Shown: in pieces, positions 1,050 to 63,280 of the stretch
How positions within the stretch are numbered: position 1 is the stretch's first letter
Layout of the letters: each line of letters opens with the position of its first letter
Notes under the pieces: model-generated
Seen by the model: only the letters and a program-made list of their open reading frames with translations
Told to the model about the DNA's origin: nothing
The model's database searches: none
Made by a program: the position numbers and the translations under genes
Assembly: GCA_002189035.1 (NCBI GenBank)
Contig: NEEC01000014.1
Location: 1,304,501 to 1,368,500, forward strand
DNA from: Utricularia gibba
Taxonomy: Eukaryota; Streptophyta; Magnoliopsida; Lamiales; Lentibulariaceae
Reading direction: 5' to 3'
DNA length: 64,000 bases

Positions 1050-3251
1050 TCATTGTTCACTTTGGTTGCACCGTTCGGTTCTGACCATGAGCTGAACGAG
1101 CCTCGAGTTCGATAACCGAAATCGACGCTGTCTGCTAGAAGATGCGGCGGCGCCGGTCACGCGTTCCATGTCCATGCCGGTCTCCTGGGCCAGTCGACGA
1201 ATCCCGTCCTCGCTCTCGACAACCCTGTCGAAGCAAATGTACCTGCCGGATGCAGATTTCTTCATTCCCTCGAACACGGAAACCTGAGCTTTTGCTAAAC
1301 GGTCGATGTCCACTGTGGCGAGTAGTCCGCGCGGTACATCTCCCCGACTCCCTTGAGGTACGCGATGGTGGCCGTGGGATTCTTGAGGCAGAAATCCCTG
1401 CCGGTGATCAGCCCGGGGCATATCGCCGCTAGCTTCAGTCCAGTTCGCTTGGCGATCTCGAATGCGGCTTTCTCGGCTCGTAGCTTCCCCAGAGCATACC
1501 ACAGCTGCTCACGCATTGAGGACTTTCAACAAACATGTCCCAGGCGTCACAAGGGAAGGAAGCATTCGAATCTGCCTACCTTTTTGTCGATGCAGAGAGA
1601 CTCGTCGCTCCAGCACTTGTGATCAATGAGGCCCGGGGCGTCTCCAAGAGGGCTGTCCTCGTCGCCTTGCCAGATGCACGTCACCAGAGAAGACGTGAGG
1701 ACACAATTCCTAACAGAAGATGACATCCCACACGCCTTCATTACGTTTTCACATGCCTTCACTTCAACATCCACCATGCTTTTCTGCACAAAAAAGAAAC
1801 CATCTACTAAGAATGTCGTCTGAAACCAAATAACTCACTTCCATAAGCGGCAATCATCTAACTAACAGGTATTGATGTTCGAATTTCCTAGGAATGTAAG
1901 AAGATCAGATGGGCATAATGACATCTCTGGGGCGATGGGTTACAGGAAAAGCAAGGAAAGTTTTTTTTAGGCCACCACAGAATCCGGGACCAATCCAATT
2001 CTAAGTGAAATTCATCCTTCACATGAAACATCACCCTCGAGTAGCGAGAGCGTGGACGGCTCACCTGAAAAAGACCTAAACCTGCTCTGTGGCCTACAGT
2101 TAATGCAGATTGTGAAATTTTGCCACTAACACACATGCAGCTACTCCAACTACCAGTCAATGACTCAAGACAAAAAAGGCTACCATCATCAGTGATGAAC
2201 CTCATCCACGCCCGGAATTATAATAAAGTAAATCAGCATTTCATGAACTTATTCAAAGGTGCAGTCAGACATGTAATGCCAGCAGCCACTAGATATTTGT
2301 TATTCGCCCTCCAAATTTCTATTCCCTACACGACCTAGCAGTCGTGTTTGCAGAGAAAATTGACCGGAATGCATACAAGTGTTATTTTCATTTGGATTAT
2401 TTTAATCAACAAATTGACCAGACATACTCATTCTTGTACTTTTTTCTATACAAAAATACCCAGTTGCTTTTTAAAAATGATAAAGATATAAAAAGAGAAT
2501 TGTTGGTAAATGAACCTCGGCATCGGATGCAGATCCGTGGTAAAAACGGCGAAGCGATAAAGTTAAAAACTAGGGCGGGGCCAACATCTACTACCCGTGA
2601 ATTGAATGCGGATTTTAAACACTCACCGTGTAACCGGAGAATCCTGCGGGGTCCACAAAGGCGGCGGTGTGAAAAACGCCGCCGCAGCCTTCGAAAGCCT
2701 CGGCGAGGCCGTCGACGTCGCTAAGCTTCGCCATCGCAACTTCGATTGTGTTGTGTCTGAGTGCCGTCATCTCGCTGGAAACCTCCATTTCTCGTAGTAT
2801 TTCGACGTCTTCTGCGATTCGCAAATTCTTTGACATCAGTTTCAAAGATACACCCGTGGAACCGATTTAATCGATCGAAAATTGAAAACAGAAAGCAGGA
2901 AAGAAAAAATCATAAAAAATGCGCTCCAATTTCCCCTGGATTCAGAGATACGGAGTAGAACCATCCGCCAACCACATCTGTATCGCGTACCTTCGTCATC
3001 GACAATAACGCGAACAGAGTAACCACGCGATAGTAGCTGGTTCACGATGGCAATCCCAAGATACGATACGCCGCTCGTGACGCAAACAAGTCTATCGACG
3101 AGACTATCCGAACCGAACCTCGAAACAACCTTCGGCTTCTCAATAGAATCCCCGCCGTCCTTACGGCGTTGGACGGCAGCGCAAGATAGCACCATCTGGC
3201 GAAACTCCTCCATCTCCGCCCCCGAGACTCCTCCGTCACCAAAATCCCCAT
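1050..3251 (-). CDS. cinnamoyl-CoA reductase-like (SNL6-type) SDR, two apparent 1-base deletions
   Basis: Predicted extended short-chain dehydrogenase, NADP-dependent, of the plant CCR-like/SNL6 group. Exons 2991-3251, 2627-2811, 1580-1783 and 1050-1504. The N-terminus carries a Rossmann beta-alpha-beta (VCVTSGVSYLG); exon 2 has the family segment GGVFHTAAFVDPAG; exon 4 has the catalytic YxxxK in WYALGKLRAEK. It lacks the NWYCYGK signature of true lignin CCR, so the substrate is unknown. Two breaks: the family-like start MGILVTEES at 3251 is one base out of frame with MEEFRQM (C run 3219-3223), and near 1326-1328 the frame shifts between GEMYRA and LLATVD. Adding one base at each gives 1,107 coding bases (368 residues), normal for the family, with all splice phases consistent. 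So either two sequencing deletions or a very young pseudogene; I favour sequencing error. Confidence 0.85.
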
Positions 3252-4296
3252 ACCGGCTCCAAATCAGCGATCCACTCAATAAAGGCTACAGGCCCGCACC
3301 AAAGCTCCTGCCACTGCGCAGTATAAATGGAGCAGCACCCCACTGAAAACGACCCGCCACCTGTCAATCGGCCGGAGCTAACCCCAAATGGCTTAGCAAA
3401 GTAGTTGGCTAATTTAGGACTTCCAATGTTTTTTAGAACACATATTTATTATTTAAAAAAGCCAATAATTTCTAATTTTAAATTCATAACTCAAAAATTA
3501 AATGCTCATTTCGGAAATACTAAATATCCATTTTCACATCAATTTATTCTCTCATTTTATATTCATTTTCCCCCATTAATTAAAATTAACTTAATTACAT
3601 ATTCATTTTGACACAGTATTGGTAGCTGGGGGATCGGTAGGTGGAACGCGCGGACCAAAAAACCGGAGGGCGCACCATCGCCGACGGCCCGACGTGCATG
3701 CTTCCTAATCCGCACGTTTCTTCCAATTAACTCTTTTTTTTTAATGTGTCACAGTAAAATAAAAAAAATTAAATTTTGATAGGATTTCTAATATTTCCAT
3801 ATTTCAAAAATGGGGGGAAAAAGGGATTGGACAGATTTCGCTGCCATGGAGGACAAAGTTGACCCGGTCTGCCTAAGAACAGCCGCTGCGTAATAAATTG
3901 TCTAATTCAACGGCTAGGATTAAAACCTAATTAAAATTCCATTTATTAATTCCCTTGACCCTTCCACGCAGGAGAGTCGAGGGGTGATTTAGGAATGCAC
4001 CAATCCTATAATTTTACGATAATATTAAATTATTATAATTTTATATTTTTCATTTTTATGGAAAATATCTCATAAAATATTATCAGAATACTTTTATTTA
4101 AATACTTCTAATATATCACATTCGTAATCAATATAACATATCATTCAGTTCAAATTTTATATCACATACATTTATATAAAAAAATATATTACAAATGACT
4201 ATATTCCTCACACACATGATATTATATAAAAATATTTAAATAAAAATATTATTTTAAAGTACAGAAATTAACAATCAAAGAAGATTATCACGTAAA
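3252..4296. other. AT-rich intergenic with imperfect inverted repeat
   Basis: No gene seen. An imperfect inverted repeat of about 33 bases lies at roughly 4087-4122 and 4217-4255, centred on TTTAAATA/TATTTAAAT cores. It may be a decayed MITE, but ends and target duplication could not be fixed. Confidence 0.4.
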
Positions 4297-4366: not shown

Positions 4367-4369
4367 TGT

Positions 4370-18119: not shown

Positions 18120-21100
18120 ATGGGAGTTCATGGACTGTGGGAGCTTCTGGCTCCCGTGGGCAGACGAGTCTCTGTGGAGACGCTTGCTGGGAAGAAGCTC
18201 GCGATCGGTACCCTAGAACGCGTGCTTCTTCGTCTTTTACCATGGTTCCGCCTTTGGTTTGTTATGGTTCTTTCTGGGTCATGTAGATGCGAGTATATGG
18301 ATGGTTCAGTTTATGAAGGCTATGCGCGACGAGAAGGGAGAGATGGTCCGAAATGCCCATATACTGGGGTTTTTCCGTCGAATATGCAAGCTTTTGTTTC
18401 TACGGACTAAGCCCGTTTTTGTGTTCGATGGTGGAACGCCAGCTCTCAAGCGGAGGACGGTCATTGCCCGTCGCCGTCGACGAGAGAATGCTCAGGCAAA
18501 GATTAGAAAAACTGCTGAAAAATTGCTGCTTAACCATGTATGTAGTTCTGTTAATTTATTGCATTCTTTTATGGGTGTCTTCATTGTGTGTTGAATCTGA
18601 TAAGAGTGCCCGCGTATTGCTGCGTTAGTTTGAGATAGTTTGACATTTTGTCTAATTGTGATAGCTTAAGGCAACAAAGCTGAAGGAATTGGCAGCAGAT
18701 CTGCAGAGGCAACGACAGGAGGATGACATCAAAGGGAAAAGGCCCATCTTGCAGGAACCAGATAATGAACCGGAGGCTTATAAAGGAAATGATGGCTTAC
18801 GCTCTAATTTTGATCAGGAAAAAAATGATGAATTGTACGACAGGCTATTTTTATTTGTCACGATTTTTAGGTTAAGAAATGTTTCTAATTGTAGTCATCT
18901 AGTTGATTAAGGTTGGCTGCTTCTCTTGCGGCGGAAGAGAATGAAGACATAGAAGTTGATGATGGCTATGAAGAAATGATGATGATTGTATGATTTTTCT
19001 TTTCTTTTTGGGGTTCCTTATGAGCACCTCATTGTTATAATTGACTTCATCGGTCTTTTCTCATTCAATGGTTTCTTTCAATTCTCCCACAGCCAGAGAT
19101 GCATGGAAAGGTTGATCCTGCTGTTTTAGCTCTTTTGCCCCCATCAATGCAACTTGACCTGCTTGTCCAGGTGACCTTTGGATTTTTCGAGATCATGAAA
19201 TTGCCGACATTCATGTATAATTCCTTTTAAACTTGGCTACTGCTTTACAGATGAGAGAAAGACTGATGGCTGAGAATAGGCAGAGGTACCAGAAAGTGAA
19301 AAAGGTAGAGACTGCTCTCTCCATGTATGTTCTTTTCACGTCATTGGAATGTTTTGAAAGGTTTCAATATTTTCTTTGTGATCAGGAGAAGATTAATTCA
19401 TGTTTTCAGTAACTTTCGTTGGTGTTTTAGGCACCAGAAAAGTTTTCAGAAATACAAATAGAGGCATATCTTAAAAAGGTGGCTTTCCGTCGTGAGTTAG
19501 AGGTAGTTCAGAAGTCCACCGCAGGCCAGGGAGTAGGTGGTGTGCAGACCTCAAGAATCGCATCAGAAGCGAACAGAGAATTTATTTTTTCCTCATCATT
19601 TACTGGTGACAAACAGTCCGTAGTAAAATTTTATCTCTGTATTTTTCCATATTTTATGCATACAAATTCTTGTACGCCTATGTGCGTCTTCTCATTAGAA
19701 AAATTAATACAATTGAACCTTACAGTGCTACTTTGCTGAAACATGATCGTGTTTTTCAGATCTTTCACATCTGGTGAGGAGAGCATGCTCCTATCTGATC
19801 AAATGCAGCCACACCCAGTTGTGTGCTCCTCGGTTGCAACAGGTGAAGCTTTGCCAACCAATGGAACTGGTGGCATAGCTGCTCCACCTGCTCCAGATAC
19901 TGGAGGATTATTAGATGGCATTGAGACATATTTAGATGAAAAAGGCCGATTGCGCGTTAGTAGAGTGAGAGCTCTGGGAATTCGTATGACTCGGGATTTG
20001 CAGAGGAACTTAGATTTAATGAAGGAGATTAACAATGAGACAGAAGGGATCCTCTCTGGGTTGACTCTGAATCAGGATGCAGCTGAGGGTAGTGATACCA
20101 GGATGGGTGATGAACTCAAGAAAAATAATGGAACTGATGTGTTTTATAGCATTCCCATTGAAATATCTTTTGAACATGCAACAGCTCTGGAAAATATATC
20201 AGATGATGGGGATTTATTTGATCGTTTAGTAGCAGGACAACCTGTTTTGGATTTTACTGTTGATGCACCTGCTTCGCTGAAGGATAGATCGGTTTCATCA
20301 TCAGAATGTGAGTGGGAGGAAGGGGTAGTTGGAGACACAGCTCTGGGAAGTGAGGCAGAAATCCGGTCTGAAGGGGTTGTGAGTGATGAGGGAGAAGTTG
20401 AATGGGAAGAAGGACTCAGTGACACTCAATTCACCTCAACTCACCAAGAAGGAAGCCTTAAAAATGTTTCCAAGGGTGTACAGGAGGAAGAGGACGATCT
20501 TCAAGAGGCAATTAGAAGAAGCCTGGAAGATGCAAGCTGCAGGTCCTTTCAGGAAATCAATGATCATGTGTCTGCATGGGGCGGAGGAATGGCACGTGAA
20601 GCTGCAATGTCATCTGGAAAAAAGGGGCCTGAGGATGCAATGCCTTGTGTCAGCAAGGGATTTGGTGGCTCAACTGATTCTGCGATTGGACTATCTTCTT
20701 CATTTATGGAATCAACCCCTCAACCAAACCTGGAGTATCGGAATAAAGATCCTGATGGAAATTGGAATTTGAGTGGAGACCAGTATCGCACTACAGACAC
20801 TCCTTCTGAAGAAGAGGTGATAGCACAGGGAAAGAAATCCGATGAGATATTGGATGGAGCAGGCGAGAGGGATTCTGAGAACGAGGGTGTAGAACCACAT
20901 CATGTTTCAGTTAAGGGTGATGCTGGTTTTGACTCGTTTATTTCATCTGTTGCTGATTTGCCACATGCCAAACTCCTTGACTCTTCAACTGCCGACACCC
21001 AATATGATGTAAGTCAAACAGCATCAGATGAAAAATATCGCAGTTCCATACAATTTGAAAATGCTACTCATTATGGGTCAACAAGTTATTTACATGGAGA

Positions 21101-23740
21101 AAAACAGGTAGCAGAGGACAAGCTGGAAAGTACTGTGTCGATAGAAATGGAGACATCCATGGGGAATAGTTTTCTGGATGTTAACAATGAGCAGGAAATG
21201 CTCACGGAATATATTGAAGATCAATTATCTTCTCTGAGTAAAGAATCTGAACAGCTTCAGAACAAGCAACAGAACCTAGAAAAAATCACAGAGTCTGTTA
21301 GCAGCGAAATGTTTGCAGAGTGTCAGGTAATTGGAGCCCCCATATCGTAATGGAAATCCTTAATGCTAGAGCATCAGTTTATAAAGTTTTCTTGCATTAA
21401 ATCGTGAATGCATGCATAATTTGAATGGGGACAGTCACTGTAAGTGCTTGAACTGTTTTCAAGAACACGAAGTATAGATGCATATGTTTGTTCTCTGCTA
21501 TTGGTTCCATGATTATTGCTACTTCTCACTCTAGGAGTTGCTTCAAATGTTCGGACTACCATATATTGTTGCACCATTGGAGGCTGAAGCTCAATGTGCA
21601 TACATGGAGTTGTCAAACCTCGTTGATGGAGTGGTCACTGACGACTCTGATGCTCTTCTTTTTGGAGCTCGAAGCATATACAAGAACATCTTTGATGATC
21701 GAAAGTATGTGGAGACTTATTTCATGAAGGTAAGTTATTACTGATCCTGCTCCTACTCCTTGATCAACATGGAAATGACCATTGTCATCATGCTATACTG
21801 TAGGATTATTATCCGTTAATCAACAATCACCTTCTGTGTTTTTCTGGTTCTAATCCTTTGTGAGCCCTCCTTCAGGATATTGAAACCGAGCTGGGGCTGG
21901 ATCGAGAAAAACTGATCAATATGGCCCTGCTTCTTGGGAGTGACTACACAGAAGGCATCAGGTGATCATCAATCTGCATTTTCTCTGGGTTCGTTTTCTT
22001 AGGCATCTTCCCTGTTGAACATGAGAAATATTGGTATTCATCTGAAATTTGGCAGTGGCATCGGAATTGTAAATGCTGTTGAGGTTGTAAATGCGTTTCC
22101 AGACATTGATGGCCTTCGTGAATTTCGGGAGTGGATTGAGTCGCCAGACCCATCTATACTTGGCACAGTGGACACAAAAGCAGTGGGGCATTCTAGAAAG
22201 AAAGCATCCCAAGCAGATGAGAATATTCAGAGGCATTCAGATGATCAAACAGATAGCAAAAAGCGTATCTTCATGGGGAATCATGTAATCCATATCTTCT
22301 ACAGCCATCTCTCCTTCTGAAGTTTCATTACATGATGCAATAGTTAACACATGTTACATCTGAAACAGAGAAATGTTAGCAAAAATTGGCATATCCCGTC
22401 TTCTTTCCCCAGCGAGGCAGTGATTTCTGCATATGTATCTCCCCATGTTGACAAGTCAACAGAGCCATTTTCATGGGGAAGCCAGATCATTCCGCTCTTC
22501 GAAAGTGTGTAGCAACCTCTCTTTGTTTCGTGCTTGCATCGTTTCATGATATTTCTCTCCTATATAACAAGGTTCCTGTGACTTAGACTGTGCATGGAGA
22601 AGTTTGGATGGGGAACTACAAAAGCTGATGAGCTGCTGCTGCCTGTACTGAAGGAGTATGGCAAACACGAGGTTGATCCGTTGAACCAGCTTGTTTTCTC
22701 TGGAATCGGTTTTTCTGATATTCATGCCTGGCTAATGCAGACGCAGCTGAGGTTGGAAGCATTTTATACATTCAACGAAAGATTTGCTAAAATTAGAAGC
22801 AAACGCATAATGAAGGCTGTCAAAGGAATCACCGGCAAGATGTCTTCGGAGTTCATGGATGTTACCGCAGTTCCCCTGCAAACAGGACGAGGAAACAAGC
22901 GAAAGGTATCAGCTGGGGAAGATGAAGATGGATCCGGGGGAACAAGTGAAGAAAAACACCTGGAAGAGTCCCTGGCATCCGAAAGCAGCGCAAGGAGGAA
23001 AGCAACAAGAGGACGAGGACGAGGAGGAAGAAGCAAAAGGCAACCAAGTGAGGCTAGAGCAAGGAAAAGGAACCCTTGCGGTGATGCTAAAGCTGACGAT
23101 GGAGGCGGGGAGGAAAAGCTGGAAGGATCTCTTGAACTCCGTAGGGTAATCACCCAATCCACTTCATTATGTTCTCATTTCTGCTCCATTACAACTCGGG
23201 TTTGAGTAAGCTAACATGTTGTTCCCTTCTTTGAGGGGATTCCAGTCTGCTCGGCCTCGGAAGGCCGTGAGCTACAGATTTTCTGAATTGGACAAAGACG
23301 ATGAGGAGTCCCTCGACAAAGGGTCATCGGTGCATTCATCCGGAGGTCAAGCCAGTAAAAATGAAGATAACCAAAGTGACGATCATCATAGTGAGGACCG
23401 AATTGCCTCATATGAGGAACCCGAAAGAGCATACGCAGCTGATAATGCAACCACTTGCCATGATGATCAGAATGCACTGTTGCTGCCAGCGTCATCATCA
23501 GATGACTATCTTCGATTTGGGGGTGGATTTTGCTCAGTTGACAATGAAGAAGCCGAAGGCGTCGATGGGCGCACACCAGTGACGGACTCCGGCGAACTAG
23601 ACGCCCCGGATTCGTCGGAACCACTGGTTGAAGCTGGGCATGAGGTTCAAAGTGATCAGCATGCAGAGCTGGGTAATCCTAGCAGTTCGAACCCATTTCG
23701 CCCCATGCCAGGTTTGAGAAGGAAGAAGAAGACAACTTGA
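18120..23740 (+). CDS. UVH3: XPG/RAD2-type endonuclease UVH3
   Basis: Structure-specific endonuclease making the 3' incision in nucleotide excision repair, nuclear. Fifteen exons: 18120-18207, 18287-18537, 18665-18834, 18912-18987, 19093-19170, 19251-19304, 19431-19615, 19760-21326, 21535-21729, 21876-21961, 22056-22284, 22369-22508, 22587-22671, 22741-23145, 23246-23740; 1,367 residues. XPG N-domain: [41 protein letters not shown] long acidic spacer follows (most of the large exon 8), then the I-domain with [10 protein letters not shown] and [15 protein letters not shown] carrying the metal-binding acids, and a helix-hairpin SGIGIVNA. A basic [11 protein letters not shown] tract and the C-terminal RRKKKTT look like nuclear localisation signals. 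The intron at 22672-22740 is open in frame, so it could be mistaken for exon; the family alignment (KHE joined to TQLRLEAFY) argues it is removed. Confidence 0.95.
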
Positions 23741-24954
23741 GCTTCCCTTGTTCCTACTTCCAGCCCAGCATCATTCAAAGCATCCGTCCATCTTTCACCT
23801 CAATTTTTTAACTGGGTCCTGTCCATCCATTGCCCGGTAAAGTCTACTCTGGAAACTAGAGAAACACCTCGAGGAGTTTGGCAGAGGAAGAGCTCCCACA
23901 ACACTGTTCTTCTGTTTCTCACCCCAACTCCAACATTCCATTCTCAGATGACCGATGCACCAAAGAAAGATGGTGTAGAAATAGCAGATGGATACCGTTT
24001 GGATTCATGGATTCCTGATTCCCCCCTGGCTGGCCAAGGAAGTTCCTATAGCTGGCTGAATCTTCTGGTTCTGGAACTGTTGAACCACATGGGGCAAATG
24101 TGCATGACGCGCACGTAATTTGAGTTTGAATGTGAATTTGAATTTGATGAGAGATGTGAGGAGTTGGTAGGGTCCACACATGGCCCCACACCAAGCTTGT
24201 GCTCCCCTTTATTAGGGCACCCCCACATCCAACTCCCATTTTATCTTTATATTAAAACTCACACATGCCAAATATCAAATTCAAAGTACAATCATTTTGT
24301 ATATAAAATAATAGAAAATTTATTTCAATTTTCAATACCACAGATATTCGATATTCCCAATATACCCTTTTCCACAATTTTTTTCTTTTTTTTTTTGTAG
24401 ATAATCCATACCTACCAGATAACCACCTCACCTCGTGCATGGGGCTTACTGGTACGGCTTACAGAAAAACAGTTGCACGTCCTATTCATAAAAAGAAAAA
24501 GATTATATGAGTATAATAATTTTTAATTATAATTTAACATATTTTTAAAATATAAAAATAATTATTTTATCATGTTATTATTAAATTAAATTAAATTAGA
24601 TTTAATTCTAAAGTAAACTCATAATTTAGCAACACTATTGAAATAAGGGACAGGGAGGTATTGAGACTAGGGATGTGTTAACTCACATTGCCACTCGCAT
24701 CAAGTTGTGTGTTTGTGTCTCCCCACATGACGTTTGTCTCATGTGCGGAATTAGATCATTTACAAATTTGATCAAATTTCTTATATCATTTATATATTAA
24801 GATAAAAAAAATAATACTGAACATGATCAATTTTTTTTATACACATATCATACGATAAAGCTATTTGATCCCATCCCGATTAAATAGTTGGGTTTAGGTA
24901 TTTTGATCTCTTTTTATTTTTAACGAATAAAAATGATGTTATTTAAGATAATTC
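23741..24954. other. intergenic 3' of UVH3
   Basis: Untranslated tail of UVH3, then AT-rich spacer. I see no gene in it. Confidence 0.5.
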
Positions 24955-25560
24955 ATGATGTGACCCTTTAATCTATAGAGATTAGCAACCTACAAAAAAG
25001 AGGTGATTTTGAAGCTTAGAAGAGAACCCACCCAAGTCTACCCTCAAGAGAATAAATCTCTTGCAACCAGACTTCGAAACAAAGAAAATTAGGAGCCACA
25101 CTTCAAAAAAGAGAGATTGATTGGAAGTGATAATCCTAGAACGCCACAAGCTCAAAGCTTGATAAGTTAAGAGTGTTCAAGCACTCAAAGGAGAGGAGAA
25201 TCCTCACAAGATACATAAAATGACCAAAGATGCTGAATTAGTACATCTCTAGAGTATTTATACTCTAGAATTGGGCTCTAACATTACATAGTCCAAACTA
25301 AATGAAATAGAAAAGTCTAACAAGCCCAATGCTCTAAGTTAAGTCCATCTTCAAGTAGTTGAGCTCTTTTGATGGGATGTCTTCAAGCCCATGTTTGATT
25401 CCAATGGTATTGAGTAGACCCTTAAGTGTATCTTCAACCATCTTTATCTTGCTCCTAGTCATTGGTCCTGGTGGAATCATCTTTCTTTCTAATTTGTTCA
25501 CTTGAACAAACTCCTCATCATTCTTCAAATACACTTCATTATCTTCCTGGGGCTCATCAA
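24955..25560 (-). mobile_element. Ty3/gypsy retrotransposon remnant (end of pol plus LTR-like end)
   Basis: On the minus strand, 25534-25334 encodes ERKMIPPGPMTRSKIK, a variant of the GPMTRARAK tail found at the end of plant Ty3/gypsy polyproteins, followed by a stop. Downstream (25330 to about 24955) is LTR-like sequence with a TATA motif (TATAAATA near 25258), repeated CTCTTGAG-type motifs, and an end in GGGTCACATCA. The rest of pol and a second LTR are not visible within several kb, so it is a truncated remnant. Confidence 0.6.
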
Positions 25561-27450
25561 TTCATATAGATCTATTCTAACTATCAAATGTCTAAATCAT
25601 GATCCATAACAAGGGTTTAGAGGATTAATATCATAACTAAATTCAGGTATGTGCCAATGGTGGGATAAAATGGCACTCATCGAATATACTGATTATTTAA
25701 GAGTGGTAAAATGCGAGAATATGAGACTAATGACGGTATCCTATATCAGTTAGAAATGTAAGAAGAGGACATGATTATATAGAATAATCTTCTAATCTTA
25801 CATGATACCTTTTTTAATATAGTTAAGTATGATTAGATTGAAGTATTGCGAAAAAATAAGTGAACTTTTAGGATGATATATAAAAAATAAAAAAAAATAA
25901 AATCGTAAAAATTAGATGTTCAAATTAAAAAAATATCGTGACAGATGGGAATGGCAATTACATGAAGTTTGAACGTGTTGGATTATGTTATGGTGGGTGT
26001 ATTATGAGAAAAAGAAATGCACGGTTTATATAATCGAACCCGGTCCAAAGAAAGAGACTGAATATTTGGTAAACCGGAAGCAAACAATACAGTTATTATT
26101 ATTATTTTTTTAATGAAAAGAAGCTGGTTGGTTTCATGTCCCGTGAATCATGGTCTGGGGAGCCGGGATCTGTTACAGTTGGGTGTATTTAATTTTATTG
26201 CCGACATTATAATAATAAAAATAATACAAATATATCATTTTCAAAATTAAAAAAATTTATATTTTGAAATGACAGTGGCAATGAATGGCTTGAATGAGAC
26301 GAAGCATCGGCGGCTTGTCAGATGAAGTGGCGCATGAGGCCAGTGACCATTCTTCCTGTGTCCTAATAATAATAATAATTACTATTATTATCATAATTAA
26401 TTAATTGATTGATTAAATTCCTCATCTCCCTTTTAAAGCCAAGAATGGAACGGAAGAGGGAAGAATTTAAATTTGGGTGGTCGGGGAGTGGGTCCCACGT
26501 TACTTTGGTTTATTATTATTATTATTATTTTATTGGGTTAATGTATGAAATTAAATTTACCTTCGGGTAACAGTGAGTCGGGAGCATTGATGATTCCGAT
26601 TTCTGACCGGAGGAGTTTAGGGGTGCCGATTGAAAAGCGGCGTTAGGGATTTGAGGGGGATCCTTGTCGTGTTATCGCTATGGGGTTTTGGATTTCTGTG
26701 AAACGAGATGGAGTGGGAGATGATGAAGCCCGATCGTGGGAAATTTTAGTTTTAGAGATAGGTAGGTTGCGTCTAGGGAGTAGAGTAATTCGAATGTAGC
26801 GGGTGACTTGGGGTGTGGAGTGACCACTGTCACTACAACCTGGAATCCGAGATTGATACCACGGCAAAAATGTCAGAGGATGAATTTTTTTTTGGGGATT
26901 GGAGATGAGGTACAGGTGAGCAGACAGGACACTAAAAATGGGTGTTGGTGGTGTGGGGCTGGGATTTTGCTGTAATTAGTTGTCTCTTAAAAGAAGTTTT
27001 TATCCCACACCGACACTTCTGCGGTGAATTTTCCGGGGACTTTGCCACCGCCACCTCGCACGCAATCCGCCATTAAAATGTGGTATCAACGTGCTTTCGG
27101 TGTTGCTGGCCCAGCTCTAATTCACGGGTATTTCGTTAATCGTCCTGAATTACTTGTGTGTAAGTGGGGATCATCGGGTTTTCTACAGATCAAGACAATG
27201 GAATGTGCGAATTCGCTGCTTCTCTGTTTCTTCTCTTTTCTCTAAGTTGGGAATTGGAATTGACAACTGGGTTTTCCGGTGTCTGCCCCTTCTTCCCCCC
27301 TTTTTTTTTTGTTAAAAAAATTAGGTTCAAGATCTGGTTTTCGTTTGAGCAGAGTGTGGTCGGCATGGAATGAGAGGTTGAGGATTCTCTGCCGTTTTCA
27401 TCAGAGATTTCGATTTTGGGTTGTGGGCTTTCAAACTTCTCCGGTTACCT
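25561..27450. other. AT-rich spacer and CSLC promoter/leader
   Basis: AT-rich spacer with ATT/AAT microsatellites; from about 26560 more balanced sequence that probably includes the CSLC promoter and leader. No separate gene seen. Confidence 0.45.
26363..26530. repeat. AAT/ATT trinucleotide microsatellites
   Basis: An AAT tract (about 26363-26380, followed by mixed ATT/AATT units) and an ATT tract (26511-26530). Likely length-polymorphic. Confidence 0.7.
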
Positions 27451-29686
27451 ATGGCGCCTAACACTGTGGTTATCACTCTAGAAAAGCCGGAGAACTTCTC
27501 CTTGATTGAAATGAGCGAGTCTAGTCCTCTATCCAAGTCCCAGGAGAAAGAAAAATCTACCAGCCCCAAGCGTTTAACTTGGGTTTTTCTCTTGAAAGCC
27601 CACAGAATTCTGACCTTCGTTCCATGGCTGGCGGTTAAGTCCTTCGGCGTTTTTGGGTCTATAAGGAAACGCATTGCTTCATCTGATCTTAACCAAGAGG
27701 ATCCTCGGTACAGAGGGAGATTGTACAATTTGATACAAGTGTTTTTAGCTCTTTCGGTGATTTCCCTTGTGGTTGAGTTTGCAGCTTTTTACAATAACTG
27801 GGATTTGAGTTTGATGAATCCATGGGAAGTTAACAATCTGGTGCAGTGGCTGTATTTGACTTGGATGGATTTTAGAGCAGATTATATTGCCCCAATGGTT
27901 GTCACACTTTCAAGACTCTGCATTTTACTTTTCATGATTCAGTCTTTGGATCGACTCATTCAATGTTTGGGATGGTTTTGGATCAAGTACAAGAAGTTGA
28001 AGCCTGTTATAGAAGAAGTAGACATTGAGGATGGATCAAATTACCCCATGGTGCTTGTTCAAATGCCTATGTGTAATGAAAGAGAGGTAACAGCTGAACT
28101 CCTGTTTTCACTCGCTGCTTCTTTTGAATGTTCTTGATCTGAAATGCTGTTTATCATCGTGAAAATTCAAGGTCTATGAACAGTCAATTGGTGCTGCTTG
28201 CCAGCTTGATTGGCCCAAGGACAGGTTTCTTATTCAAGTTTTGGACGATTCAAATGATGAACTGGTACAGAAATTGATAAGGGAAGAAGTCATGTCATGG
28301 AGAGAAAAAGGGGTGAACATAGTCTACAGGCACCGTTTTATCAGAACAGGTTACAAGGCAGGGAACCTTAAATCAGCCATGGCTTGTGACTACGTAAAGG
28401 ACTATGAATTCGTTGCTATTTTCGATGCTGATTTCCAACCAAACCCAGATTTTCTCAAGCTGACAATCCCTCATTTCAGGGTACCACTTAATTCACAACA
28501 TTTCATCCTCTTATCAAGCTTTCTAAAGTTCTTCCTTTTTCTTTTGTATCAGGGGAAGCCTGATGTGGGCCTTGTTCAGGCACGTTGGTCCTTTGTGAAC
28601 AAGGATGAGAACCTGCTAACAAGGCTACAGAACATCAATCTCTGCTTTCATTTTGAAGTTGAACAGCAAGTAAATGGAATTTTCCTCAACTTCTTTGGGT
28701 TCAATGGAACTGCTGGTGTCTGGAGAATCAAGGCTTTGGAGGATTCTGGGGGCTGGCTCGAACGGACTACGGTGGAGGACATGGATATTGCCGTCCGGGC
28801 TCACTTGAATGGATGGAAATTTGTTTTCCTCAATGATGTTAAGGTTCTTTGTGAGTTGCCCGAATCCTACGAAGCATACAAGAAGCAGCAGCATCGTTGG
28901 CATTCCGGCCCTATGCAGCTCTTTAGATTATGCCTCCCTTCAATCATCACTTCCAAGGTATTAGTTTTGTTATACAGGCAGTAGAATAGCACCCCCAATG
29001 TTACTCATTTGCTTTTCTTCCTACTGTGGCCGGTCTTTGCAGATATCAGTTTGGAAGAAGGCAAATTTGATATTCCTTTTCTTCCTGCTCAGGAAGCTTA
29101 TACTTCCCTTCTATTCTTTCACCCTGTTCTGCATCATTCTCCCCTTGACAATGTTCATCCCTGAAGCTGAGTTGCCTGGCTGGGTGATCTGCTACATCCC
29201 ATTACCATGTCCATCCTCAACATTCTCCCTGCGCCAAAATCTTTCCCATTTCTGATGCCATATCTGCTCTTCGAGAACACAATGTCTGTCACAAAGTTCA
29301 ACGCCATGGTGTCGGGGCTTTTTCAGCTTGGCAGTGCCTACGAGTGGGTTGTAACAAAGAAGACCGGAAGGGCATCAGACTCAGACCTCGTAAGCCTTGC
29401 CGAGAGGGAGTCGAAAACTCTCAACGAAGATAAGATTCAGAGACGGCTTTCAGAATCTGGGCTCGAGACCCTGAGCAAACTAAACGACCAGAAGGAGCAG
29501 AAACCACAAGTGGTGAAGAAGCAAAACAGGATCTACAGGAAAGAACTGGCCCTGGCGTTCCTTCTGCTCACTGCTGCTGCTAGAAGTCTGCTGTCAAAAC
29601 AAGGGATCCATTTCTACTTCTTGCTGTTCCAGGGCTTCTCTTTTCTGATCATGGGCTTGGACTTGATCGGTGAACAGGTGAGCTAA
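27451..29686 (+). CDS. CSLC: xyloglucan glucan synthase, CSLC family (one apparent 1-base deletion)
   Basis: Family GT2 Golgi enzyme making the beta-1,4-glucan backbone of xyloglucan. Exons 27451-28086, 28172-28480, 28553-28957, 29043-29686; 664 residues after correction (CSLC4 about 673). Catalytic motifs are all present: DDS in [12 protein letters not shown] in [15 protein letters not shown] in TTVEDMD, and QQHRW. Hydrophobic segments lie at about residues 95-200 and again in the last third. In exon 4 the frame jumps between GWVICYIP and [11 protein letters not shown] near 29198-29203; one missing base accounts for it, and exon length and phases then fit. The stop follows GEQVS, the usual CSLC C-terminus. 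I read this as a functional gene with a sequencing deletion. Confidence 0.92.
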
Positions 29687-31619: not shown

Positions 31620-34600
31620 ATGAAGTCAGACGTTGGGGTTCTTGGGGTGGGAAGCAGTATTAGGGTACCAGAATTAAGAGGATTACGAAATCGAGCTCAA
31701 TTTCTGAAGAGGCGAGAAAGATGGTTAGTGATTCTGGGTGTAGTTCTTCATGCAGTTTACATGTTGAGCATATTCGATATCTATTTCAAGACACCAATTG
31801 TCCATGGAATGGACCCTGTTGTACCTCGCTTTTCTCCTCCCGCGAAGCGCCTTGTGCTAGTAGTTGGTAGCTTTCTCCTCCTTTTACAGTATCATTCCAC
31901 ATTGCGAGTATTATGTGGCATTTGATTCAAGAAAAATGTGCTTTTGGTTTGTAGCGGATGGTTTAAGGGCAGACAAGTTCTTCGAGCCTGATATAGATGG
32001 AAACTATCGGGCACCCTTCTTGAGGCGTGTGATGAAAGAGCTTGGGCGTTGGGGAGTTTCTCATGCACGTCCTCCCACAGAGTCTAGGCCTGGTCACGTT
32101 GCTATTATTGCTGGATTTTATGAAGATCCTAGCGCTGTTACCAAAGGTGGGAATATGGAAAGAATTTCCTTCCCTGCTTCATTGACTTTGTTGATAACAT
32201 GTAAATGTCTTTAGATATTCATGTTTACTGAATGTTGCTTGATTCTAGGATGGAAAGCAAACCCGGTTGAATTTGATTCAGTTTTTAATAGGAGCAGGCA
32301 TACATTTGCATTTGGCAGCCCAGATATCGTTCCTATGTTTTGTGGTGCTTTGCGCCATAGCACATGGAACTCATACCAAGTGAATATGAAGATTTTGCAA
32401 CAGGTACCCTGGTTGTTTTTTATTTAATAGAGGTGAATGTCCTAGTGGTAAGGTAGAGTATGACGATGAGAGATTGAAGGCTTGCTTTTATATGAAATTT
32501 GGTTCAGTGCTCTTGCTGAAAAAAAAAAAAATCACCAGCTTTTCTATTGCCTTGATTCTATATGGTGTTTCATTTCTTAGTTTCTTGTTGATGCAGATGC
32601 CTCATTTTTGGATGAATGGTCTCTAGATCAATTTCAGAGCCTCCTGAACCAATCATATGAAGATGCGAAGCTGAAACAGCTTCTTCAGCAAGATAATCTT
32701 GTCATATTTCTGCACCTTCTTGGTTGTGATTCAAATGGTCATGCTCATAGGCCTTACTCACCGACATATCTGAATAATGTTAGGGTTGTTGATCGTATTG
32801 CCTCAAGAGTTTATGATCTTGTCGAGAGTTACTTCAAAGATAATTTGACGGCTTATATTTTTACTGCTGATCATGGGATGAGTGACAAAGGTTGAGCACG
32901 ATATGCAGTAATATTTCGTTTGTGTTCTTTATGTAGTTCTTCTGGGGCATGTATATGTGGCATTAACTTGAAAATGGTGCTCTTTTGTGACAGGGAGCCA
33001 TGGAGATGGGCATCCATCAAATACGGATACTCCACTTGTTGCTTGGGGAGCAGGCATTAAAAAACCTGTAAAAAGGCATGTTAGCCACCATCTGGATCAT
33101 GATGATAATATTCCCTTTGTGGACGAACACTTGCACAATGCTCCTACGCCGTCTGAGTGGGGACTGGATGGTTTAGAGAGGCTTGATGTGAATCAAGCTG
33201 ATATTGCACCTCTGATGGTAGGAACCTTTCTAAAATAGTTCAGTCTTGATGCTAAGCTATGTTCTTTGGAATTCATGCATTTATATTCTGATGTATTGTT
33301 TCTTTGACTTTATCAAGTCGACTCTTCTAGGTTTGCCATGCCCTGTTAACTCAGTTGGAAATCTGCCTCTTGGATTTGTTAATTTTAGTGAGGTTAGTTG
33401 CAGCCAAAGAGCACTGCTATGAATCTTCGTGCAGTTTATGTCTGACAAAGTTGCATGGATAATTAGTTGGATTTCTATAAAGATTTTCGGTCTTTATTGT
33501 CACTTGCATGGATATAGTGAAGATGGTGAAATTATTCCAGGTGCAAGAAATTGAAGCGATGCTGGCTAATACAAAGCAAATTTTGAATCAATTTCTCAGG
33601 AAGGCTCGTATCCTTGAAATTTCAATATTTCTATTTGATACTTTTAGGATTTGAAATACGATCGAGTTCCATAAGAATTCTCAACTGTTTTGGTTTCTTT
33701 CACTACTAATCAGAATTGAAGCAGGCTAGCTCACTAAATTTCAAGACCTTCAAACCTTTAGCTGATTATAACTTAGTTCTGGATCAGATCGAGCACGTAA
33801 TAGCAGTTGGAAATTATGAATCTGCTATGAAGTTCTGTAAAAATCTCCGAAGACTAGCACTGGACGGGATTCAGTACTTTCAAACTTATGATTGGTTTAT
33901 GCTCATGACAGTGATTTCTCTTGGCTACCTTGGCTGGATGATTTATTTATTTATGCATGTTTTGCAACTATATACTCCCCTTCTTGAAAAATTTTATACA
34001 AGGGATCAATCTGGTCATTTGAAACCTAATGCTAACAAGGTAGAAAAACCAACTAGATTCTCCTCATCAAGTTTTCTTCTGCTTTTTTTTATTTATTTCG
34101 TTTTATAATTCTTCAGATTTATCTCTATGGATCTCTTCTGATGGGGCTGGCGTCTGTTGTACTGCTTGTGGAGCATTCTCCTCCTCTTTACCATGCTTAT
34201 TTTGCAATGACTATATTTCTATGGGTCCAAATCGTTCGTGAGTATGAGTTTATTCAAGCTCTATGCCGTTACATTCTTGAGAAAGATGTTAATTATTTGA
34301 AGTTGGTGACTAGTTTTGCAGTATCGGTATTTATTCTCGAAATTCTGGTATGTGCATGTTGCTGTTTTCATATGATTTGAATCCAAATTTTTCTACTGAA
34401 GTGCCACATTTCATTTTTGATGTATCTTATTTTGTGCAGGTGAAAAGCTTTACGGATAGAAAAATCTACACATGGACTTTTTTGCTTGTTGGGGTTATAG
34501 CTTCCATATATCTTTTTTACTCAATATCTTGGAACTCTGGAATACCTGTTTTTGTTTGGCTTGCGTGCTGGTTTTTATCCATCTTCACATTGATGCCAGC

Positions 34601-41460: not shown

Positions 41461-42098
41461 ATGGCCGGAGGAACAGAAGCTTTCCCTGATTTAGGGAGGC
41501 ACTGCCAGCATCCCGATTGTAATCTGCTCGATTTCCTTCCTTTCATCTGCAACGCCTGTTCCAAGGTTTGGTTCTCTGCCTGAAATTTTCAATTCAATTC
41601 GATACGCTCGGAAGTGTATGATACGTAGGTGCAATTGCTGCAGACCTTCTGTTTGGAACATCGATCTTACAAATCGCACGAGTGCCCGAATTCCGAAGTC
41701 AAGAGCCGTAAGGTTTTGGTTTGCGAGATCTGCTCCACCGCGGTCGAGACCACCGGGCACGACGGAGACGAAGAAAAGAAGATTCTAGAGAAGCACGAGA
41801 AGTCGGGGAATGCGATCCTAGGAAGAAGAAAAAGCCGATTTGCTCCATCAGACGGTGCAAGCAAGTCCTAACGTTCTCCAATACGGCCACGTGCAAGAGT
41901 TGCGGAATTCAGACTTGCCTTAGGCATCGGTTTCCGGCGGATCACGCCTGCTGCCGGCCGCTGGCAACGCCGCATGTCTCCGTGGCTCCCAATATCAAGC
42001 TCCTCAACAGCATTCTGGCGGCGAGGAAGGGGATAGATTGCGGAAGCAACGGCCAGGCCACTGCTTCGCCCTCCGCTCCAAGCGTTAAGGCCCATTGA
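41461..42098 (+). CDS. SAP12: AN1-type zinc-finger stress-associated protein, SAP12-like (one apparent 1-base deletion)
   Basis: Small protein with two AN1 zinc fingers; SAP family members respond to abiotic stress, and Arabidopsis SAP12 is cold/salt-induced and redox-sensitive. Exons 41461-41565 and 41644-42098; 186 residues after correction, the same length as Arabidopsis SAP12. First AN1: [22 protein letters not shown], then [13 protein letters not shown]. Second: [12 protein letters not shown] and [17 protein letters not shown]. At the G run 41804-41807 one base is missing, so the frame breaks between EKHEKSG and ECDPRKKKK; restoring it joins the fingers. No A20 domain. Confidence 0.9.
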
Positions 42099-51400: not shown

Positions 51401-54400
51401 ATTTTATCCTTGATTTCTTTAATCTCAGCAACTAAGGCTGCCACAAGAAGATAAAAGAATGAATCAACATAAAGAAGATAAGGTTCAAGAACATTTCAAG
51501 TTCTCTAAGTGCAAAGCATTTAATACTACGCAGAAAGAGAGATGCAATAATGAAACATAAATAGCCTACATTTTGTACTCAAATTCTTTGAATCCTGCTG
51601 CTTAAAATAAAAGCTTCTGTGATCAAGTGTCTTGTAATGATTCTTCTGATATATCTCAGCCCAAACTTTGTTAAAATCTGAACGGCACTTAGTCCACTCC
51701 TCCTGCTTCTGCTTTAGGCGTGTCAGGATGACAGGTAACGCCAGAGAGGGATTTTTCCGCAAAATGTCCATTACATCCAGACCATGGTCACCATAGAGGC
51801 GCTCAATGCATCTTAAGTTGAGAGCTGTTTAAACCAAGAAAGAATTCAACAACTAACGGAAACTACAAATTTCTATATTGAGAGTTGTGAAATTTCAAGT
51901 GACTTGACAAGCCTGTGAAATGATCCTCAAACCGTATGTGGCCCTCTGTTCCAATTGAGTTATCTGTGATACTATTCAAAAGTTCCTCCACACGCTTGGA
52001 CGTAGAACTCACCGACTCCAACAGCATATCTAGTTCAAACCTGAAAAAAATATAATTAGGAATTCTCAGGCACTAGGAATGACATGACAAGATGGATAGA
52101 TGAAATGGAATACAACTTCAAAGTCTAAACCAATCCATAAACCATGTTAGCTTTCTATACCTATCATCTTCACATCTAAAAAGGCTTTCTTCGTACTGGT
52201 TTCTTCGCATGTGTTTAAAAGAATAATCCTCACTTCCAGATGTTACAGACACCCATTTGTCATTTAGAACCTGGTTACCAAGATCTGACCTCTGGCTAAC
52301 GGAGCACATTGGTACTGCATGGTCATAATTAACATAACGTCATTGAATGCAGATTACACTAGATTTACTTTTTTTAAAAAAAATCTGCATAAAGAAATAT
52401 TACATCATCAGGAAGAAGCCGATAACTGGGAGTACAGCATTCAGAATTAGAAAGGTCGAGCTCCTGAATGGACTTCCCAAAGTATTTAGAGTTGGGTCGT
52501 TCTTTCTCTTTACCACCCTCACCTTCACGTCTCTGCTCCTTTTCCTTATCCTCGAGTTTCAAATGTTTCGAGGAGCTTGCTTTGTTCCAGGATGACTCTG
52601 CTTCCAATGAAAAAAAAAATAGTCACGATAATATTTTACCCAGAAACAACAACAATGAAAACAGAAAAGCCATCTCTTTATGAACGAAGAATAATAGAAA
52701 ATGAGTAGATTGCATACTTTTTCCCATAACACCAGGCAGAAATCCATCTGAAGAATAAGAGAATGTATCAGAAACCCAACTAAAAAAGTAGGTTTTAAAC
52801 AGTCAAAACCAATGCATACCCATGCGTTCACACCGTTCCAGAAACTCATGAAAGCGCTCCAAAAGGTCTTGATGTTTTCCAATTATAGCAGCGACCTGTT
52901 CGCACATCAAGTGAGAAGAGATCCTACGCATTTTAGTTTTCCAAAATGTTGAAGGAAAACCATCAAGAGATACAGAAAAAACCAGTTTATCATCCTTCAC
53001 AAAAGAAAGAAACAAATCCACCTTGTTGATGATACTTTCCAAATCTAATTTCATTCACACTCACATAATAAACACATTTTGTAATGGAATAATCAGATAA
53101 ATAGAAAACTCCTCAATTTCCCAACATAAGAATGAAATAATTTGTCACAGGCTAAGCAGTCCTACCAAATCCTGCAATTCATGCCTACTGATGATTTCTT
53201 GGCTGTAAAGGTGAAGGCATTTCAAAAAATCCTGGTAATCATCTGCATTATGCAACCTCTCTTTGACTTTTTCACAGAAGCGAAACTCACGGCTGTATGC
53301 ACCTGCAAGACCAAACATGAAATAATTGTCAAAAGTGCGCATATGAATCGTAAGAATATTAAATGCAAAGATGAAATGTAAACTGCACGGACAATTATCT
53401 TTCTAACAGATTTTAGATGACATATTTCAAGAAAGAGAACAACTCTTTGGCTTTTTGCAACTTTTTGAACTCCGAGTAAGATGACTTTTGGCATGATTAA
53501 AGAGATCCGGGAATGCTTGATGGAACAGACTTTTAGATGATACAAGTGAAATCCGAAAAACAGGAGAGAGAAGTCTCACTTTTCAATGCATCTTTGTTAT
53601 CAAAGGAAGCAAACTTTGCAGTTCCTCCAAAGTCATCAGATTTTTTAGCAGACTTCCTTTTTTCCGAAACCCGATGCACATTAACTTCCAACTTATTCTC
53701 AGTGTCAAAATCCCCGCCATCCATATCACAGTTCCTCCTGTCTCTGTCCCTTTCAGCATGCTTCTTTTGCTCCTTGTGAATTTTTGTGGCTGTTTTATCT
53801 TCTTCGATATCTGGGCGCTCAACACTAAGGTCTCGTTCTATGTTTGGGTCTACAGACCTTTCTTTAAGTTGTCTCTGCTCATGAAATAACATGCCAAATA
53901 AACATCGATACAAGAGCACCAAAAACAAGCAATTGATTGCATTGGAAATAAACTTATAAAAACCTTCTCGATGTATGCGTTCCTCATTGCAGATAAGGAA
54001 GAGTTCCTCTCATCATTCCCGTTAGAGAAATGACGGCCCAAAGAACCATTAGAATATGCAGTAGCAGCTGCTGGCAAAAATTTTGTGAACTCATCTAGGA
54101 GGTCCGTATGGCCACGAAAAAGTGCAGCTACCTTCAGGTGAATATATTCAGATTGGTATGGTTTGACAATGAAAAACCCAACAACAGACACACTTAAGTG
54201 CACAGAAAATAAACTCCAGACATGACCAGCTCAAAGGAAAACACATACCTCTCTATAAACTTGAGTTATACTCTTGTGTTCCTTCCGGTACATGTTCAAG
54301 ATATCAAGAAATGACTTGTAAATGTGCTCATCATTCTGAAATCGTTTCTACAGGCGAATAATATCACTTAATAATGTGCATCATGGGATAAATAAAGACA

Positions 54401-56791: not shown

Positions 56792-59263
56792 ATGGCGACG
56801 ATGCCTGTTTGTTTTCTCAACCCCTATACGGTTCAAGGTGGGGTTCCTACCGCTCGTTGTCCGCAGATTTCAAACGAAATGTTTCCACCCAGAAATCGAT
56901 CTTCGGTCTCAATACAGTCTCACAAGATGACACCCAGTTGCTCAAACTCATCAGGTGACCAGTAAATGTATTTTTTCAAAGGCTCCTCTTTTTTGTGGTT
57001 GCAAATGGGGTTATCTGGAACTGTTTGCGCTTACGATCTGAGGAAAGGGAATCATGTGAACTCTGGAGATTAAGCTAGAGAGCTCTGTTTTGAATTCGTT
57101 ACCAAGTTTGCATCTTTTATGATTGATGATGATGATGCCCTGTTGTGCAAATACATTAGTTGTTCAGAGATTCTTTTATTTGCGTGCCTTATTCATCAAT
57201 CATTTGGATGCTGTGGATATCCTTTCTCTGCCCTTAGGTTCTCTGATTTCCAAGTGTGGTGAAAAAATGCTAGTGGGTTGCTAGGTGAAGTACATGGAGT
57301 GGAGATGAGAACTGATACAAGTTTTGGTTGCACGTATTCTTTTATTTTCTTCCAACCACAAGACGCAGAGTTGCTCATTCACAGTTAAGTGAATTGGTGT
57401 TGTTGGCATAGGAGTTGGAAGCTCATGGATGAAAATCAAGGAGAAAATTGATGAACCAAGAAGGGAAGGTCGACTGAAGTCTGTCTTTCCAAAGATTCCG
57501 GCTGAAGTTTCTTCTGTAGAGGACCTTTTCGAATTTATATGCTCAGGTCCTCTTGTGGAAAAAATCGGCCTTACCTCTGAGAAGGTGGCTGAGTCCATTG
57601 ACAAGTGGATTGTATATGGATCACAGCTTTGCCGGCTGTTTAAAATAAATGAACTCTTTCTCTCAGAAGCTCAGAAGGTTCGAATCTTCCATTACTATAT
57701 ACCAGTTTTAATGTGGTGTGAGCAGGAAATCTCCAATCATCGTTCCATGTTCAAAGAAGGAGATGATATCCCCCTTTAGTGGTAAACAAGCACCTTGATT
57801 CAATGCTGTTTTAGTGTATCATGGTAAGCCATTTGCTGTTCCACTTGGTTTAGGAAATGTTGTGTTTGCAGATTGGTTTCAGTGCACCCCAAGGTTGTGG
57901 TAAGACCACACTCGTCTTGGCACTGAGATTCCTTCTCAATCTTGCAGGGAGGTGAATCCAACATACTGTTCAAGTTTCATGTTATTTTACATGTTTGGAA
58001 AGACCACTAAACACTCATTCTTTCAGAAACACAGAGGTTATCTCCATTGACGATTTTTATCTTACAGCAGAAGATCAGGTACAAGTAAAATCACTCCTTT
58101 TGGTGTATTTCCTTTTCATGAATCTACAGTGTCGAATTTAGGCAAAACTCAGAGAAGCTAACCCTGGGAATGCACTTCTAGAGGTATGAAACTTACCTGT
58201 TGTACTGGACATGTCATTGTGTTTTATCTGAAATCCATCTCTTATCATATTGAAACAGTTCCGTGGGAATGCTGGCAGCCATGATCTTTCCTTATCTCTG
58301 GAAACACTAACGTCCTTAAAGAAACTGACTGCACGAGGTATGACTGTACTGCCAGTTGAGTGTACATTTGAACTGCAGCTAACTGTGATATGCACTACCA
58401 AAATTTAGGCCAGAGAATGAAGATCCCTCGCTATGACAAGGTAATCAAACTCTTGCCCAGCAATGTCAAGTTTGAAACTCAAACCTGTGTTGTCATTTGC
58501 TCAGTCCGCATATAGAGGTAGAGGTGACAGAGAAGATCCTTCAAAATGGCCAGAAGTGGAAGGCCCTCTAACGGTAACTTGATGGTGTTCATATTCTGAA
58601 CACCCCCACATCACAACGTTTACATTTCGCTGCTAATGAAGTTATGATCAGTAGGCTGTTCTGTTTGAGGGCTGGATGCTGGGTTTTAGGCCTCTTCCTG
58701 TTGAAGTTGTCAAGTCAGTAGATCCACAGGTCTGTAGAGCACATGAAAATCTTATAAACTTGTTATCATCTTCCTCAAACGCAACTAGGTGTTGATATAT
58801 TGCAGTTGGTGGTCATCAATAAAAATTTAGAAGCATATAATGAAGCATGGGATCAGTTCATCAATTCCTGGATTGTAATCAAAATACAGGACCCAAGCTA
58901 CGTCTATCAGTGGCGTTTACAGGTACTCAGGAATGACACTAGATGAGTCTGTCTTGTTTTGTAAAAGTACCACACGAACCACCATTTCATTTCAGGCAGA
59001 GATTGGTATGAGAGAAGCAGGAAAAACCAGCATGACTGATGATGAGGTATATGTTTCTCCCCATTGTTTTCTCAAGGAAGCAAAATGTTTCCTGCATTTA
59101 GCACCTCTTGTGTACACAGGTGAGGGACTTTGTCTCCAGATATATGCCTGCATACAAAGCATATCTTCCCACACTATATGCTGAAGGGCCAAATGGGTCC
59201 GATCCGTCTCATACTTTGGTCGTCGACATTGATGAAGGCCGGAACCCCATCCTAGCCAATTAG
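56792..59263 (+). CDS. GLYK: D-glycerate 3-kinase, chloroplastic (one apparent 1-base deletion)
   Basis: Phosphorylates glycerate to 3-phosphoglycerate, the last step of the photorespiratory cycle, in chloroplasts. Twelve exons: 56792-56954, 57412-57781, 57872-57951, 58027-58078, 58142-58183, 58259-58337, 58409-58440, 58505-58573, 58655-58729, 58806-58922, 58996-59046, 59120-59263; 424 residues after correction. Transit peptide in exon 1; P-loop IGFSAPQGCGKTTL; IDDFYLTAED; GNALLEFRGNAGSHDL; KSAYRGRGDRED; FEGWMLGF; C-terminal YAEGPNGSDPSH...RNPILAN. At the C run 57770-57774 one C is missing, giving a false stop after DDIP; with it the family reading DDIPPLV|IGFSAP and the splice phase return. 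Confidence 0.94.
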
Positions 59264-61027: not shown

Positions 61028-61560
61028 TATGGGCAGACAATGTGACGCCGGCTACAAAATGTAAACAACCCAGAGATTAAAAATCAGTTGGGTATGAAAG
61101 AAAACGACTGCGCACCCCTCGTAAATGCGACGCTTGTAAAGGTGGCCATGGATGTAACTGCATTGCACTGTGCACCTCAACTTCAGATCTGAGATCTGGG
61201 ATCCAACCCCACGGCACCGACACTATCAGACTGTGTGGCACCCATTTACTGCAACCACCTTTCTTCCATAGCAAGTTATCCATCATTCACTTCATTATAA
61301 TGATGATTGTTTGAATGGAAAGATTATTATTAACATCAGTTGTATGATAAATTCTGGACAGAACGGGCGTAGGGTCGACCGCCGGAGCATCACATGAAGG
61401 GGAAAAACGAACGTAGAGCACAGCTGGAGTGAGAATCAATGTGAATGATCCATAAGAAGCACACCAATGTGAGTCATTCAATGGGAACTCCGGTACAGCA
61501 AAAAGAGACACAGTAACCAAGTATAATGGGCGTGCAGTAAGCGGAGGAGAAGTGTGTGTT
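61028..61560. other. CDI leader/promoter and XRCC1 3' region
   Basis: No further gene recognised. Confidence 0.5.
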
Positions 61561-63280
61561 TCAAGTACCGATGCTGTTGTAAGCATGATCTATATCCTCT
61601 TCAGTCATCTTTACTGTTGTATCACTCTCGTAAGAAGTCTCTTTCTGGGCCGTGCTCTCTTTCGTTTTCTCTGCTGTGGCTCGAGCCTGGCTTCCAGGTC
61701 TTCTCTTGCTCGCAATTTCATCACGTTGCACTAGAAATTCAAGCTCGTATACTGCTTTACAGGCCATTGCTTCTTCACGTAGAGTTTTCCTGCTGGTTGA
61801 GCTGGTGCCTTCAATGTTTTTGTCTAGACGAGCCAGCTCCTCCACCACTCGAGGAACGCAGGCCCATTGTTCGGTTACTTGTTCCATGCCCTGAACAAAA
61901 AAGAAAATGCAAGTCAGGTGAACTGCCATGGAGGAGGAAACCTGGGATTTGGTTGTAAAGATGTGTTCTTTGCAATAATAACATGAAGAACAGAAAGCAA
62001 AAAAAGCATACCTGCCCTGTCCCTAATGCATCTATGGCATCTTGTATGCATGTCAAGATTCCTTCCCGTGCAACTCTCTGTATCTCACTTGGCTCTGGCT
62101 GAAGAAACGGAGACGAAAACTGGTTGGATAAAGAATTGCAGCAAAGCATTCATGCGCAGCATGCCCTGTTAAGCTGACTACGCCATTACATTTACATGAG
62201 CAACATATTCAATCTTCCAAGGCATAGCATGGAATCAAACAGGCGCTACTACAAAAAATCTTTCCATTCAGTAAACTGAAGGCTCCCTTGGTGTAACTCG
62301 ACTCTAACAAAAAAATTATAAGTTACCTTCTCTTCTTGACTTTCCAGCCAGGATATGGTTCTTACGAGATCCTCACCAGCCCATCTTTTGGCTTTTGAAG
62401 GATTAATAGCACTGAAAATGCCCTTATCCTGATAGGATTCATAGCGTACGGTCAAACCATCAACTTTATTTGGTTTCAACCATGGGGAAAAGAAAGAGGG
62501 GGCAAGAAGAACCTTTATGGAGGGTGATCCTTTCTCTCCTTTCAAATGTTTAGTAGCTCTCGACGGCTTCGTATCTGACCATAAACACAGTTTGCAACTG
62601 TAACAATTTTTAAACTTCAAAAGAAATAGCATGAAGAAGAACGTAGAGGAACTTTTCACTGCAATTAGTATTCACTTTGAGCATCGGATCCACGAGAAAG
62701 TGATTGCCTCCTCCACGGTTTACCAGGATGCAGTAGGTATGGCTCAATGTCAACAAGCTTTTTTTGGGTGTAACACTCTAGTATCCACTCCTAAAGCAAA
62801 ACAAATCAGTAGAAGGCTGTGAATTGAAGAGTGGGGTTGTCTTAGCAAAACATCACTAGCTCACACAGGAAAGAAAAGTGAACCTTGGACACAATGGTGC
62901 CACCTTCACCTTCAACTTGCCTGAACTTGGGAGTGCTCCAAACGCGCATACTAAAAGAGTGCACTTTGCATTCCAATCAGGCTGATATTCAGACCCCATT
63001 TCCAACATCTTGGATCTCAAATCACCGCGCTCAGGATTCACAAATCCAGACAGCACAAACACTACCCCTTCCTGCATGCAAACAGATGCGTGATTCATCC
63101 TCAACATCAACAAAAAATTAAAAACCTGCAATAGAAAAGTGTTACCATGAGCCTTGAGAAACCTGCATTACTCAACCCAGAATCGGATGTTTCGCGGTCC
63201 TTTTTGGAATTTTCCGTGTCATCTTCTCGACAATTCATCCAAGAAGGCAGGTTCCTTTTCTTTGCGCTTGACCCTGACAT
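61561..63280 (-). CDS. XRCC1: DNA-repair scaffold XRCC1 (one apparent 1-base deletion)
   Basis: Scaffold in base-excision and single-strand-break repair, nuclear. Plant XRCC1 lacks the animal N-terminal domain and keeps one BRCT. Six exons: 63146-63280, 62884-63071, 62676-62790, 62327-62574, 62012-62098, 61561-61890; 367 residues after correction (Arabidopsis about 353). It begins MSGSSAKKRNLPSWM; BRCT: GVVFVLSGFVNPERGDLR, YQPDWNAKCTLLVCAF, then EWILECYTQKKLVDIEPYLLH. The C-terminal half has RTISWLESQEEK and VPRVVEELARLD, ending YESDTTVKMTEEDIDHAY. Near 62939-62943 one base is missing between LLVCAF and STPKFRQVE; restoring it fixes exon length and phase. Confidence 0.92.

Follow-up and report, generated by a model that had tools for sequence, protein, structure and literature searches.

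Seven genes in a stretch of the Utricularia gibba genome appear to be broken by eight single-base deletions, which raises the question of whether these lesions belong to the plant or to its assembled sequence. The window, i.e. the whole 64,000-nucleotide stretch that was analyzed, corresponds to C98:1304501-1368500 of an assembly (G000) comprising 100.09 Mb in 516 contigs. All eight places were read in six frames, and the frames upstream and downstream of each were compared; homology was assessed by Pfam, by alignments to PDB structures and by DNA relatives within the same genome.

The six-frame reading revealed the expected change of frame at all eight places, bearing out the claim of the sequence-only reading that every break is of the -1 type and none is +1. 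In the 3' part of the CCR-like gene (minus strand) the frame is lost after GEMYRA, at 1326-1328, where the minus strand reads CGCGCGGACTAC and the short run is likely GG; the structures 5tqm (a cinnamoyl-CoA reductase) and 4r1s both align through the joined frame at this junction. GLYK (glycerate kinase, plus strand) lacks one base in CCCCC at 57770-57774, at the end of an exon, whereby GDDIPL followed by a stop replaces GDDIPPLV, and a plant glycerate kinase (7xpc) aligns with it gap-free for 118 residues through IPPLVIGFS. The XRCC1-like gene (minus strand) is interrupted within its BRCT domain, at TTTGG (62938-62942), where either the GG or the TTT is short. The BRCT domain of human XRCC1 (2d8m) aligns across this break without gaps, with one unknown residue at that point, and the BRCT match extends from profile position 49 to 78 once the frames are joined, the whole domain being present only then. 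In the SIN3-like (SNL) gene (minus strand) the break falls in the first codons of an exon, at 52311-52312, where GG on the plus strand corresponds to GGG in the paralogue on C411; Pfam recognizes Sin3_corepress only once the frames are joined, and the alignment with human SIN3B (8bpa) runs through the break.

The PIG-N-like gene (plus strand) has lost a base at TACCAAG (32375-32377), the likely short run being CC. Pfam detects Phosphodiest, with a match that starts at the break, in the joined protein but not in the frame as given, and PDB support upstream of the break is weak. The SAP12-like gene (plus strand), which codes for a double AN1 zinc-finger protein, has a -1 in the G run of CGGGGA at 41804-41807; the second zf-AN1 finger is recognized by Pfam only in the shifted frame, the exon pieces being detected separately. 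The CSLC (cellulose-synthase-like C) gene (plus strand) has CCC at 29198-29200 vs CCCC in its homeologue on C409, which is approximately 85% identical, and the remaining visible in-exon gaps between the two are multiples of three. The eighth site is a possible -1 in GGGGG (CCCCC on the plus strand) at 3219-3223, at the extreme N terminus of the minus-strand CCR-like gene, where the supposed start MGILVTEES is not in the main frame and immediately precedes an in-frame ATG (MEEFRQM). No relative found in the PDB alignments or the same-genome search covers the first nine residues, and for this reason the site is unproven; it may be a real -1 or merely a 5' leader. Seven of the eight breaks are thus backed by homology to relatives outside the window, the N-terminal CCR-like site being unconfirmed.

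The sites have much in common. Their runs as assembled, at seven of them, are GG, GGGGG, CCC, CC, GGGG, GG and CCCCC; a single G or C missing from a run of two to five bases fits seven of the eight, and XRCC1 fits either G/C or T, such that seven or eight of the eight lie in G/C runs. Exact placement from a DNA relative was obtained for CSLC and SNL only, and GLYK is pinned closely by the protein alignment. The earlier description of the breaks as all being at homopolymers is correct provided that runs of two are included, but the bias is towards G and C rather than towards homopolymers in general. Beyond the break, the frames at the CCR-like 1326 junction and in XRCC1, SNL and GLYK match solved relatives well, and only -1 lesions occur at the sites. 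The mixture of lesions and the decay of the downstream frame that mark a pseudogene are not seen.

A DNA search of the window against its own genome, covering in parts all but positions 20001-28000, yielded no near-identical second copy of the parts searched and identified homeologues on C409 and C411. The block C409:1554921-1585428 (minus strand) is homeologous to window positions 28000-61046, originating from a past genome duplication, and carries CSLC and two further genes in collinear order at approximately 85% identity. The window genes at 36.8-37.8 kb and 60.2-61.0 kb show no frame-changing gaps against their homeologues in the well-aligned parts. Neither PIG-N nor SAP12 has a counterpart in the C409 block, which suggests that this block may have undergone fractionation.

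The same kind of break is found far outside the window. The GRAS family, whose genes are mostly intronless, was searched across the genome, and a locus was considered split where the frame switches contiguously, too close for an intron. By this definition 26 loci are intact and about 14 of 40 are split. Thirteen of the 16 junctions are -1, and 11 of these 13 are clearly at G/C runs when judged by eye; the other three are nominally +1 or -2, and one of them (C244:1855129-1855140) is best understood as a pair of -1 events. The resulting density is about 0.36 frame switches per kb of GRAS coding sequence, and eight events are approximately the number to be expected for the window if one third of it is coding. 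In HSP70 genes, all three further junctions are likewise -1, at C4, C3 and G5. Since similar -1 breaks thus occur in unrelated intronless genes genome-wide, the window is typical of the assembly.

Four paralogous GRAS loci (L027, L028, L029 and L030, on C375, C142, C2 and C1) carry a -1 at or adjoining the same Gly-Gly-Pro-Pro stretch, apparently because the motif forces a C run. Such a run represents a systematic error hot spot, which could mimic shared pseudogenization.

These data bear on the possibility that the deletions are true, recent loss-of-function mutations in the plant. Slippage at homopolymers is a real mutational route, and the loss of CSLC or SNL could be compensated by their paralogues. 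Genes under relaxed selection, however, would also gain +1 changes, stops and substitutions, whereas here the frame of each gene is preserved apart from one or two -1 lesions. In addition, approximately one third of the GRAS loci would need to have suffered the same kind of break; redundant copies of the same DNA vary in run length and hardly by substitution; and the same-genome searches returned no close second copy of PIG-N, SAP12 or the CCR-like gene. It is very unlikely that one of the eight, for instance the PIG-N or the XRCC1 break, is a true lesion fixed in the lineage, through which a normally essential or repair gene has been lost, and true mutation as the general explanation is very improbable.

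The redundant parts of the assembly allow the same DNA to be compared with itself. Small contigs that are near-identical to parts of large ones include C376, C343 and C234, and probably C241 and C316; since the assembly holds such redundant copies, its gene counts are inflated. Three pairs (C376 vs C413, C343 vs C328 and C234 vs C505) were compared over 56,124 aligned positions (56.1 kb), revealing 76 single-base length differences vs 25 substitutions, a ratio of about three to one. Of the length differences, 56 involve G or C, mostly in G/C runs of three to five. When only runs of at least three bases are considered, G/C runs account for 46 of 62 differences, compared with a 29% share of all runs of that length in the sequence examined (p = 3e-13). 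The main (large) contig is the shorter one in 28 cases, or one per 2 kb, a rate that may exceed the genome average, as redundant contigs may split the reads and lower the coverage; the rate is much the same, however, when estimated from the GRAS loci of ordinary contigs.

Wherever a protein family could show which member of a pair is correct, the longer run was the one that keeps the frame. The main contig preserves a GATA finger, a laccase, a P450 and an intron maturase whose copies in the small contig are frame-shifted. The reverse holds for a CRAL-TRIO protein, which is complete in the small contig C343 but has lost its CRAL_TRIO domain in the main contig C328; large contigs therefore bear deletions as well.

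It could be argued that the redundant contigs are alleles, in which case their differences would reflect heterozygosity and would be uninformative as to sequencing error. A 39-base indel together with a few substitutions between C376 and C413, and 20 substitutions between C343 and C328, are what such an account would predict. Real alleles, however, differ mainly by substitution, whereas here the run-length differences exceed substitutions three to one, and C234 and C505 show eight single-base differences in 9.9 kb with no substitution at all. The excess of length differences is therefore an error signature, and heterozygosity was rejected on account of the scarcity of substitutions, the chance that it is correct being very slight.

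Programmed ribosomal frameshifting or other recoding, whereby translation would restore the frame, could be reconciled with the sharp frame switches and conserved downstream frames, but it was rejected as having practically no likelihood, since the genes are unrelated and share no common signal or slippery motif beyond a G/C run, intact paralogues and other relatives encode the same protein in a single frame, and two copies of one locus differ in run length.

Some breaks recur in both copies of a redundant sequence. The P450 gene (L018 and L020, on C343 and C328) contains several -1 breaks, some apparently in both copies and some in one, and the common ones may represent a consensus error that recurs at one site. 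An HSP70-like gene carries an identical -1 in its two redundant copies (C304:2236266-2236269 and C241:17791-17794), which fits systematic error but would also fit a true lesion. The lengths of several contigs are exact multiples of 500 (C1, 8500000; C2, 6192500; C505, 3452500; C409, 2492500 bases), which may reflect a consensus caller operating in 500-base windows.

The breaks are thus best explained, with a probability of about 0.96, as consensus errors of a long-read assembly, mutations not being the cause, and the living plant almost certainly carries intact versions of several genes that appear broken in the window. During consensus building, short runs of the same base, mainly G/C runs of three to six, would be called one base short; where such an undercall falls within an exon, the frame would shift by -1 and the gene would appear broken. 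The sequence-only reading had already proposed undercalling of homopolymers in long reads, and the redundant contigs, the in-frame longer runs and the genome-wide -1 breaks support this proposal. We infer that PacBio continuous long reads were used, assembled with an HGAP/Quiver-type consensus and without effective short-read correction.

The significance of this result is practical rather than biological, and it matters since this plant, with its tiny genome, serves in studies of gene loss. A single frameshift is no basis for inferring gene loss from this assembly, in which about one third of intronless genes of approximately 1 kb are split by such errors, as estimated from the GRAS sample. 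Assembly-based counts of gene loss, pseudogenes, truncated domains and family contraction would be inflated, with G/C-rich coding sequence overrepresented, together with motifs in which G/C runs are unavoidable, such as Gly-Gly-Pro-Pro in GRAS proteins.

A U. gibba assembly has been described as built from PacBio reads with HGAP at 88x, with a contig N50 of 3.4 Mb (PMC5793159). A literature search on the polishing of this presumed source assembly turned up only a review and no description of it; nothing was retrieved on errors left by Quiver, and homopolymers are not treated in the Loa loa HGAP paper. PacBio consensus sequences are known to be prone to omit a G or C in homopolymers, thereby shifting reading frames (PMC4849082). 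In one case HGAP and Quiver left 205 indels, almost all in G or C homopolymers (PMC4832174), and in another five G/C runs in coding regions were mended by one added G or C (PMC5064100). The error features of PacBio continuous long reads (CLR) are found here as well: the events are mainly single-base deletions, they concentrate in G/C runs, and copies of the same DNA differ much more often in run length than by substitution. The pattern of deletions in G/C runs is thus an already known artefact, with no new biology.

The present breaks accordingly resemble the errors of PacBio CLR assemblies produced by HGAP/Quiver in that one base is missing in G/C runs, coding frames are shifted and indels greatly outnumber substitutions (PMC4849082, PMC4832174, PMC5064100). 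Unlike those precedents, which are bacterial, the genome here is that of a plant, of about 100 Mb; many of its affected runs are only two to four bases long as assembled, and the density of breaks is high, at about 0.36 per kb in GRAS coding sequence. They also resemble the cases addressed by Kastor (PMC12007338) and polishCLR (PMC9985148), the former concerned with small genomes and the latter a general short-read polishing workflow for PacBio CLR assemblies, in which artificial frameshifts make intact genes look like pseudogenes and are cured by accurate reads or by homologues.
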